Origin: Nitrospinota bacterium
GTDB lineage: Bacteria; JADFOP01
Assembly: GCA_022562795.1 (NCBI GenBank)
Contig: JADFOP010000047.1
Location: 1 to 15,182, forward strand
DNA: 15,182 nucleotides
Reading direction: 5' to 3'
Positions 12,786 through 15,181 of this stretch are shown here, one piece after another. The translations under genes and the position numbers were made by a program. Position 1 is the stretch's first letter. Every line of letters starts with the position of its first letter. Below the pieces are notes generated by a model, which was not told where the DNA came from, ran no database searches, and saw nothing but the letters and a program-made list of their open reading frames with translations.

Positions 12786-14246
12786 ATGAGAGAAAATCGC
12801 GCCGAGCCTCATATCTTCGTAATATTTGGTGGGACTGGAGACCTTTCGCGCCGGAAGCTCCTACCTGCGATTTCAAACCTCTCAAACCAGGGGCTTCTTC
12901 CGGATGAGGGCTCCATCGTACTCGGCGTGGCGCGGGATTCGGAACACGACGACGAGAGCTTTAGGGCCTTGGTCCACGAAGCGTTGCTCTCAAAGGGTTT
13001 TTCAGCCGAAGACGTCGGCAGGTGGTGCGAGGGGTGTGTGCGTTACCAGACCATCGGGGGGCATGGGGCGGAAGACTTCCTGGCCCTCGCCTCCCGCATC
13101 GATGCTATAGAGGGCGAGCACAACCTTCCCGGCAATCGGGTCTTCTACCTCGCGTTGCCGCCTGTGGCGTTTCCCAGAACCATCACTGGACTTGGGGAGG
13201 CAGGGCTTAATTCGAGCTCCGGCTGGACGCGTGTCGTACTCGAGAAACCCTTCGGGCACGACCTCGCTTCGGCCCAGGAGCTCCACCGGCTTATCCACGC
13301 CAACTTCGACGAATCCCAGGTCTACCGGCTCGACCATTACCTCGGGAAAGAGACGGTCCAGAACCTGCTCGTTTTCCGCTTCTCCAATCCCATTTTTGAG
13401 TCCATCTGGAACAGGGACCGGGTCCAAAGCATTCAGATAACCGTGGCTGAGGATCTGGGGGTTGAGCAGCGGGCAGGCTACTACGAGCAGTCGGGGGCGC
13501 TTCGCGACATGGTGCAAAACCACCTCATCCAGCTGGTGACGCTGATTGCGATGGAGGTCCCATCGGCCTTCACGGCCGATGCGGTTCGCTACGAGAAGAC
13601 CAAGGTGCTGCGCTCGATCGCGCCCCTTCTTCGCCACGACGTGGTTTTCGGCCAATACGCCCGAGGCACCATCGAGGGAATCGAGGCGCCCGGCTACCTC
13701 GAAGAGCCCGGCGTCGCGCCTGATTCCCGGACGGAGACCTTCGTGGCCATGAAGCTTGAGGTGGATACGTGGAGATGGCAAGGTGTCCCCTTTTACATCC
13801 GAACGGGAAAGCGCCTGCCTCAAAAGCTGACCCAGGTGGCCGTGACCTTCCGACGTCCCCCCGTGTACATGTTTGACTCGCTTGGGTTTTGCCCTATCAC
13901 CTCCAACGTGCTTTTGCTTACGTTGCAGCCCGACGAGGGCTTCTCCCTCTTCTTTGACGTCAAGACGCCGGGTGAGCCCTTCAACGTGGAGACCGTGCCT
14001 TTGCACTTCAATTACGAAGATGCCTTCGGCTCTCTTCCGGATGCTTACGAAACCCTGCTCCTTGACGTCCTAACCGGAGACCAGACCCTCTTCGTCCACG
14101 CCGACGAGGTGGAGACCTCCTGGAAAATCTTCACACCGTTGTTTGAGAAGGGTCTGGAGGTCCATCCCTACGAGGCCGGCGCATGGGGGCCTCCTGAGGC
14201 AGACCAGCTGCTTTATCAGTACGGGCACATGTGGCGTAACGCGTAG
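12786..14246 (+). CDS. zwf: Glucose-6-phosphate dehydrogenase
   Basis: A 486-residue glucose-6-phosphate dehydrogenase, the first enzyme of the oxidative pentose-phosphate pathway, which yields 6-phosphogluconolactone and NADPH. The nucleotide motif reads GGTGDLSRRKL (residues 15-25; GxTGDL type), and EKPFG at 153-157 supplies a substrate lysine. The active-site motif YRLDHYLGKE (180-189) holds Asp183, His184 and Lys188, and the base His246 sits in DMVQNHLIQL; these correspond to the residues known in Leuconostoc G6PDH. Length is normal. The frame stays open upstream to 12246 inside gnd, but the start at 12786 has GAAGGAG close by and gives the proper family N-terminus. Linked two bases downstream of gnd and followed by pgl, this completes the oxidative branch. 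Confidence 0.96.
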   Translation: MRENRAEPHIFVIFGGTGDLSRRKLLPAISNLSNQGLLPDEGSIVLGVARDSEHDDESFRALVHEALLSKGFSAEDVGRWCEGCVRYQTIGGHGAEDFLALASRIDAIEGEHNLPGNRVFYLALPPVAFPRTITGLGEAGLNSSSGWTRVVLEKPFGHDLASAQELHRLIHANFDESQVYRLDHYLGKETVQNLLVFRFSNPIFESIWNRDRVQSIQITVAEDLGVEQRAGYYEQSGALRDMVQNHLIQLVTLIAMEVPSAFTADAVRYEKTKVLRSIAPLLRHDVVFGQYARGTIEGIEAPGYLEEPGVAPDSRTETFVAMKLEVDTWRWQGVPFYIRTGKRLPQKLTQVAVTFRRPPVYMFDSLGFCPITSNVLLLTLQPDEGFSLFFDVKTPGEPFNVETVPLHFNYEDAFGSLPDAYETLLLDVLTGDQTLFVHADEVETSWKIFTPLFEKGLEVHPYEAGAWGPPEADQLLYQYGHMWRNA

Positions 14247-14247
14247 A

Positions 14248-14330
14248 TGGAAATTCCGGGAAATCGCGTAAAATCGTCATTTGGCATGGCGCCGTATTCG
14301 GAAATTCCCGGAAATTCGCGGAAAATCGTC
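14248..14330. repeat. Pair of 30-base repeats built from 10-base units
   Basis: Two near-identical repeats lie between zwf and pgl, at 14249-14278 and 14300-14330, matching at 28 of 31 aligned positions. Each consists of three units of about 10 bases. In the right copy these are CGGAAATTCC, CGGAAATTCG and CGGAAAATCG (14299-14328); the left copy has TGGAAATTCC, GGGAAATCG and CGTAAAATCG. Both end in TC. The 21 bases between them contain GGCGCC. The 98-base gap has nothing else except the pgl ribosome-binding site. A protein-binding array or a dispersed repeat family are possible explanations. Confidence 0.6.
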
Positions 14331-14344
14331 CCTTAGGAGGGCGC

Positions 14345-15139
14345 ATGGGAGTTCGCCAAATTTTCGTCTTCGACGATATATCTTCCCTGGAGGAGGCCGC
14401 GGCCCGCGAGGTCGTCCGCACGGCTAGAAACGCGGTCTCGCGCCGAGGGGTCTGTCACGTGGCGCTGGCCGGGGGCTCCACGCCGCGCGGGGTGTACGCG
14501 CGCTTGAGCGAAGAGCCCCACCGCGGGCGGATCGACTGGTCGAAAGTGCACCTATTCTGGGGTGATGAGCGATGTGTCCCGCCCGACGACCCGAAGAGCA
14601 ACTACCGGATGGCGCATGAGGCGCTCCTCTCAAGGACTCCCCTGCATGAGAGCTCGGTCCACCGAATCCACGTCGAGCTTGGCCCTGAACGGGCGGCGGC
14701 CGCGTACGAGGAAGAGATACGTGCCGTCGTCGGCGGGGCCACGCCACGTTTCGATTTGATTCTCCTTGGGATGGGCGCCGACGGACACACGGCCTCGCTC
14801 TTCCCCAACACCCCCGCGCTTCGGCAGGTTCGGCAAGAACCTCGCCTGGTGGCGCCGACCGTAGCGCCATCGCCTCCCCGGAGGCGGGTGACGCTCACTC
14901 TTAGGGCGATAAACGCGGCTCGCAAGGTGTTGTTCCTCGTGGCAGGCGGGGAGAAGGCCCGCACCCTCGCCAGAGTGTTTGAGGAGGGAGGCCGGACCTC
15001 GGAAGGGAGCCTGCCCGCGTCCCTCGTGAGGCCGCCCAAAGGGCGTCTGCTCTGGATGGTTGACCGCGCCGCGGCGGCCCGTTCATCTTCTGCCGGCAAC
15101 ATCGGCTCTAAAACCTCCTCTTTGCTAAGAAGAGACTAG
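14345..15139 (+). CDS. pgl: 6-phosphogluconolactonase
   Basis: A 264-residue 6-phosphogluconolactonase of the DevB/SOL type (NagB/RpiA-like fold), which hydrolyses 6-phosphogluconolactone from Zwf to 6-phosphogluconate for Gnd. Family motifs are GGSTP (residues 43-47), the GDER loop with FWGDERCVPPDDPKSNY (71-87) and GMGADGHTASLFP (142-154), which holds the catalytic histidine. The C-terminus extends about 20 residues beyond the usual end (after WMVDRAAA) with a serine-rich polar tail. AGGAGG at 14335-14340 is five bases from the ATG. The gene lies 98 bases downstream of zwf, separated by a repeat array, so it could be controlled partly on its own. No terminator is visible in the remaining 43 bases of the window. 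Confidence 0.94.
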   Translation: MGVRQIFVFDDISSLEEAAAREVVRTARNAVSRRGVCHVALAGGSTPRGVYARLSEEPHRGRIDWSKVHLFWGDERCVPPDDPKSNYRMAHEALLSRTPLHESSVHRIHVELGPERAAAAYEEEIRAVVGGATPRFDLILLGMGADGHTASLFPNTPALRQVRQEPRLVAPTVAPSPPRRRVTLTLRAINAARKVLFLVAGGEKARTLARVFEEGGRTSEGSLPASLVRPPKGRLLWMVDRAAAARSSSAGNIGSKTSSLLRRD

Positions 15140-15163: not shown

Positions 15164-15181
15164 CGTACTTCCCGTACTTCC
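15164..15181 (+). repeat. 9-base tandem repeat at window edge
   Basis: CGTACTTCC occurs twice without a gap (15164-15172 and 15173-15181) at the very end of the window, downstream of pgl. It may be the start of a longer array; only two units can be seen. Confidence 0.4.

Follow-up and report, generated by a model that had tools for sequence, protein, structure and literature searches.

The closest described relatives of the repeats considered here are bacterial families of short tandem units dispersed over intergenic DNA. Heptamer arrays of the GGGNATC or GGGGA(C/T)T type in Xanthomonas and Nostoc contain few units each, are scattered through the genome, lie about 90% in intergenic sequence and were reported without a leading- or lagging-strand preference (PMC4692102). 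TAACTGA direct repeats occur in gene gaps of Beggiatoaceae, cyanobacteria and Bacteroidetes, where arrays of 2 to 6 units lie beside unrelated genes, with a patchy, lineage-specific occurrence and no known way of spreading (PMC4679880). In filamentous cyanobacteria, the short tandemly repeated repetitive (STRR) sequences mentioned in PMC2670836 are heptamers that likewise recur across intergenic DNA. REP/REPIN sequences are also high-copy short extragenic repeats, but they are palindromic and tied to a RAYT transposase (PMC3116915, PMC2817692).

The arrays that fill most of the gap between zwf and pgl in a Nitrospinota bacterium belong to a family of the STRR, GGGNATC and TAACTGA kind, in that head-to-tail arrays of a few units recur at many loci with an excess in intergenic DNA, and this family has its own 10-base unit, left edge and downstream bodies. 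The STRR unit is not known to be related in sequence to this 10-base unit. The arrays are not members of the GGGNATC or TAACTGA families proper, since the unit is CGGAAAATCG and the period is 10 rather than 7. Nor do they share the four G-tracts of at least three bases behind the G-quadruplex feature of GGGNATC, because the units here hold GG only, and the preference for positions near stop or start codons reported for that family (PMC4692102) is not seen. The TAACTGA repeats of Beggiatoaceae are concentrated immediately 5′ of start codons with a single orientation, unlike the present arrays, and the portion of PMC4679880 relied on here reports no downstream bodies, whereas some of the present arrays have them.

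The window, by which we mean the whole 15,182-nucleotide stretch of contig JADFOP010000047.1, holds two copies of the repeat in the 98-nt zwf-pgl gap, both gene names being backed by Pfam. The array begins immediately 3′ of the zwf stop codon (TAG, 14244–14246) and ends 4 nt 5′ of the pgl Shine-Dalgarno sequence (AGGAGG, 14335–14340; ATG at 14345), which is left intact. An earlier note had described two repeats of about 30 bases, alike in 28 of 31 columns, between zwf and pgl and just 5′ of the pgl ribosome-binding site; that observation is confirmed, and the three differing columns are two substitutions and one 1-base gap. Its description of each copy as three 10-base units is exact for copy 2 alone, which is spaced strictly 10-10; in copy 1 a step of 10 is followed by one of 9. 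The gap is organized as follows.

14248..14278, + strand: copy 1, a degenerate array of three units whose cores are 10 and then 9 bp apart, lacking a TATT edge, grouped with the family by sequence
14279..14294, + strand: spacer separating copy 1 and copy 2, without kin at other loci except CCG before TATT
14295..14298, + strand: TATT left-edge motif directly 5′ of the first unit of copy 2, from a flank alignment of 51 arrays
14299..14330 (about), + strand: copy 2, a clean run of three 10-bp units, CGGAAATTCC CGGAAATTCG CGGAAAATCG, matching the family consensus exactly in sequence

Copy 1 reads GGAAATTCCGGGAAATCGCGTAAAATCGTC (14249–14278), with GGAAA cores at 14249, 14259 and 14268. Copy 2 reads GGAAATTCCCGGAAATTCGCGGAAAATCGTC (from 14300), with cores at 14300, 14310 and 14320, and shows the canonical left edge, GCCGTATT followed by CGGAAATTCC; it alone was called by Tandem Repeats Finder (14299–14324, period 10, 2.6 copies, 93% matches). 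The 30-mer with up to three mismatches matched one place in the window, a result reached by none of 200 shuffles. Single 10-mers with up to two mismatches numbered 37 against 31.3 ± 6.1 expected, no excess over chance, so the evidence within the window lies in the tandem arrangement and not in the unit as such. The RNA of the gap folds no better than its shuffles (z −0.33), and a scan of the gap for a promoter or terminator found neither, which led us to reject an RNA hairpin or attenuator. Most likely, the array leaves expression at zwf-pgl largely or entirely unchanged. At the far end of the window, positions 15164–15181 carry CGTACTTCCCGTACTTCC, the beginning of another dispersed repeat (CACTTCCCGTACTTCC...) that is present in stretches L005 and L006; the location of the contig end inside this repeat may explain why the assembly stops there.

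The earlier note had allowed that the repeat might belong to a dispersed intergenic family and proposed a search of the whole genome with the repeat unit, and that search bears the suggestion out: the array is not confined to zwf-pgl but has many intergenic copies. In the 2,151,810-bp genome (84 contigs, 97% complete), BLAST found 50 places, CGGAAATTCSCGGAAA with up to two mismatches gave 127 matches versus 2 for a reversed-pattern control, and the 20-mer with up to one mismatch gave 64 versus 0. The sequence around the matches resolves into about 50 loci that together carry about 64 arrays, 37 of these arrays with three units, 24 with two and 3 with four; these counts cover about 145 kb around matches, a few weaker or single matches lying beyond. 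The unit consensus is CGGAAA[A/T]TC[G/C], and its commonest form, CGGAAAATCG, accounts for 66 of 107 perfect units, followed by CGGAAATTCG (17), CGGAAAATCC (15) and CGGAAATTCC (9). Consecutive GGAAA cores are exactly 10 bp apart in 102 of 155 cases, with a minor class at 15 to 17 bp (14 cases) that mostly bridges adjacent arrays. The family is strictly directional, no opposite-strand core having been seen within 80 bp of the arrays. When the 51 arrays without another array in their upstream flank were aligned, TATT directly preceded the first unit in most of them (positions −4 to −1: T 65%, A 78%, T 67%, T 67%) and an A-rich stretch lay at −14 to −10, conservation was absent upstream of about −25, and in the last unit it faded past CGGAAAA. 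Seven arrays (C4, C6, C10, C11, C21, C37 and C48) are followed, 12 to 49 nt downstream, by a complete or half GGAACGRA/TYCGTTCC palindrome, and none is preceded by one; as a general part of the arrays this palindrome, GGAACG..CGTTCC as suspected by eye, was rejected, its core words being present downstream of only 7 of 53 sites. A search of Rfam with 13 array loci and the yqeC-like locus returned tRNAs and weak or chance matches only.

Thirty-seven of the 40 strong loci lie outside predicted open reading frames, compared with about 84% coding sequence in the sampled genome (p 3e-26). Gene boundaries here are approximate, as they come from a home-made caller, and the 240 kb of background stretches, picked where no match was listed, calibrate the score and the coding fraction, not the density of arrays. 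By gene pair, the strong loci comprise 9 convergent, 7 divergent, 9 codirectional on the same strand, 5 codirectional antisense, 7 at contig edges and 3 inside genes, while the intergenic bases of the sample are 59% codirectional, 22% divergent and 19% convergent. Because the classes track the available intergenic DNA, none stands out, and the arrays have no orientation bias relative to genes. Their neighbors, most of them named by eye from translations, include zwf/pgl, purE-like, glyQ-like, htpX-like, iscA-like, L32-like, larC, etfB-like, glycerate kinase and yqeC-like genes. One copy (C3:34705) ends the larC frame, and another (C16:2716) lies in frame within the glycerate kinase gene. The protein is three codons longer there than in the same-genus genome G001, a difference too small for that copy to be a simple 30-bp insertion. 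The arrays most likely sit in gene gaps because insertions are tolerated there.

The comparison with relatives covered three genomes of the class: this one, G001 (85% complete) and a class-level relative, G002. The zwf-pgl gap, which the earlier note had proposed to compare in related genomes, is occupied in G001 by an unrelated 72-nt sequence without an array, between genes that are 75% identical in DNA to those described here. The 20-mer with up to one mismatch has no match in G001; looser settings gave two array-like places, at the yqeC-like locus (C499) and in C597, both parts of one shared segment. The C499 sequence is 94% identical to the present genome, suggesting that it was possibly transferred or misbinned. 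No matches above control were found in G002. Among 84,980 species genomes, a scan that near relatives may fall outside, the exact 20-mer occurs at only 26 isolated places in unrelated taxa. The sparse signal in G001, the null result in G002 and the isolated 20-mers elsewhere indicate a family that is confined, as far as sampled, to this lineage and for the most part to the species. An exact empty site was not recovered, since in G001 the zwf-pgl gap and the glycerate kinase gene, both without an array, are too diverged to define a junction, and larC has no match in G001.

Six arrays (C2, C28, C42, C55, C62 and C67) have in common a further ~70 to 100 bp directly downstream, termed body 1, whose copies are 73–97% identical to the body consensus and which was not found without an array anywhere in the genome. 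Pairwise alignments of these copies begin no more than about 13 nt from where the array starts; upstream of it, apart from the short TATT, the DNA is unrelated. In G001, C597 and C499 have in common the array and ~70 bp of a different body, and again not the upstream DNA; both contigs end soon after, as at an assembly repeat. This body 2 is 90–93% conserved between the two genomes, though zwf-pgl is only 75% identical, and its two copies in G001 are at contig ends. The bodies are located as follows.

Body 1: L006 1534–1610; L005 1541–1615; also C2, C28, C42 and C62
Body 2, array followed by AACCCATAAAA..TGATTATACACAAATGGTAAATGCAGGCGCC: L033 581–699 (C29 of the present genome); L107 26–121; L128 6285–6381

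Body 2 also contains a DnaA box-like sequence, TTATACACA. Elsewhere, a 66-aa ribbon-helix-helix-like open reading frame (L006 2136–2336; Pfam TacA1 antitoxin, 6e-8; NikA-like, 4e-6) lies downstream of the C55 array in a stretch with dispersed repeats around it.

In two genomes, shared downstream DNA joined to unrelated upstream DNA places the left boundary of repeated segments at the array; this boundary is sharp, and the right one is variable. Most copies have no downstream body. Terminal inverted repeats, target-site duplications and a related transposase were not noticed in the flanks read, a look that was unsystematic and in which the right end is undefined.

We propose that the zwf-pgl arrays are members of a lineage-restricted, dispersed, directional family in which a moving segment has the array as its left terminus. 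Taken whole, this account is probably correct; membership in a dispersed family is very likely, and the terminal role of the array in a moving segment is tentative. The family takes the form TATT then (CGGAAAATCG)2-4 at about 50 loci. Copies may spread by a copy-paste process, some bringing a downstream body with them and most consisting of the array alone, and the number of units per array probably shifts by replication slippage. Alternatively, the array may be a favored target for insertion, and the conserved A-tract and TATT flanks could also reflect such a target or a binding site. A bolder version of the mobile reading, which we think unlikely, casts the arrays as the recognition end of a hitherto undescribed type of non-autonomous mobile element in a little-sampled bacterial lineage. 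One directional end of helically phased CGGAAA sites would then be bound by a putative oligomerizing transposase or recombinase and joined to varied downstream bodies.

The repeats are distinct from REP sequences. They are direct repeats without a palindromic unit or inverted pair, and the fold of the zwf-pgl copy is not above shuffles. Three Y1 transposase genes are present, two of them closely flanked by GTAGGGACAG...CTGTCC repeats and none by arrays, the nearest array lying ~700 bp from one. A RAYT/REP-like system therefore exists in this genome but with another repeat, and REP/RAYT identity of the arrays was rejected. Besides the arrays, the genome holds a REP-like dispersed repeat, GTAGGGACAGGG...CCCTGTCC, with a GTAG head and palindrome, which flanks two Y1 (RAYT-like) genes (L173 1317–1984; L175 1317–1423; downstream halves of L005 and L006). 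The 10-mer head of the GTAGGGACAGGG repeat has 9 copies in 240 kb of background and 4 in 114 kb of G001, and a further palindrome, TCCGCCTNAGGCGGA, is dispersed in both genomes.

A rival reading, improbable though with some support, is that the arrays are multi-site platforms for a putative nucleoid- or chromosome-organizing protein, with the phased CGGAAA cores under selection and the genomic scatter constituting the function. The strict 10-bp phasing, the single orientation of the cores, the conserved A-rich stretch and TATT edge, and the array position at the yqeC-like locus kept in one same-genus genome are consistent with this idea, as is a predicted bend of 39 versus 18 degrees per 50 bp for background in a wedge model. 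However, tandem duplication of a 10-bp unit yields phasing by itself, and among random 10-base units with matching composition 28% reach that bend once in tandem, so the bending is no evidence of selection and A-tract bending was set aside as a special feature. Of the earlier suggestion that a 10-base period suits protein binding or bending, the phasing thus stands and the special bend does not. Near-absence from G001 would be unexpected for a chromosome-organizing system, and the link to downstream bodies better fits mobility.

Still less probable is a role for the arrays as operators bound by a regulator of transcription or translation that counts zwf-pgl among its targets. The end of the zwf-pgl copy so close to the pgl Shine-Dalgarno sequence and the placement of certain other copies upstream of genes favor this possibility, which is countered by gene-pair classes that fit the available intergenic DNA, by the unrelated functions of the genes, by the lack of a promoter, terminator or notable fold in the gap, and by the array-free gap of the sister genome. 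The earlier note had expected copies near sugar-metabolism genes if a regulon were involved; the neighbors are instead unrelated housekeeping genes without orientation bias, and a sugar regulon was rejected.

That the arrays are replication iterons of phage or plasmid origin is scarcely credible, since the period-10 CGGAAATTCC arrays that several viral contigs carry inside a phage replication initiator-like frame lie within coding sequence and lack the TATT edge, CGGAAATTCC makes up only 9 of the 107 perfect units here, no plasmid match was found, and about 50 dispersed copies are ill suited to an origin. The viral arrays (L165, L167–L172) occur in the frame GRMLSK...HTDDFGR...GLHKRTKS and may themselves be origin iterons.

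For the dispersed, directional family that we favor, the zwf-pgl gap is an instance in which an attractive regulatory explanation for part of a metabolic operon gives way to a genome-wide repeat family. The family offers a compact case for how non-palindromic short repeats without an obvious transposase multiply in bacteria, and its shared left edge and variable bodies provide a testable entry to the question of how the arrays spread.
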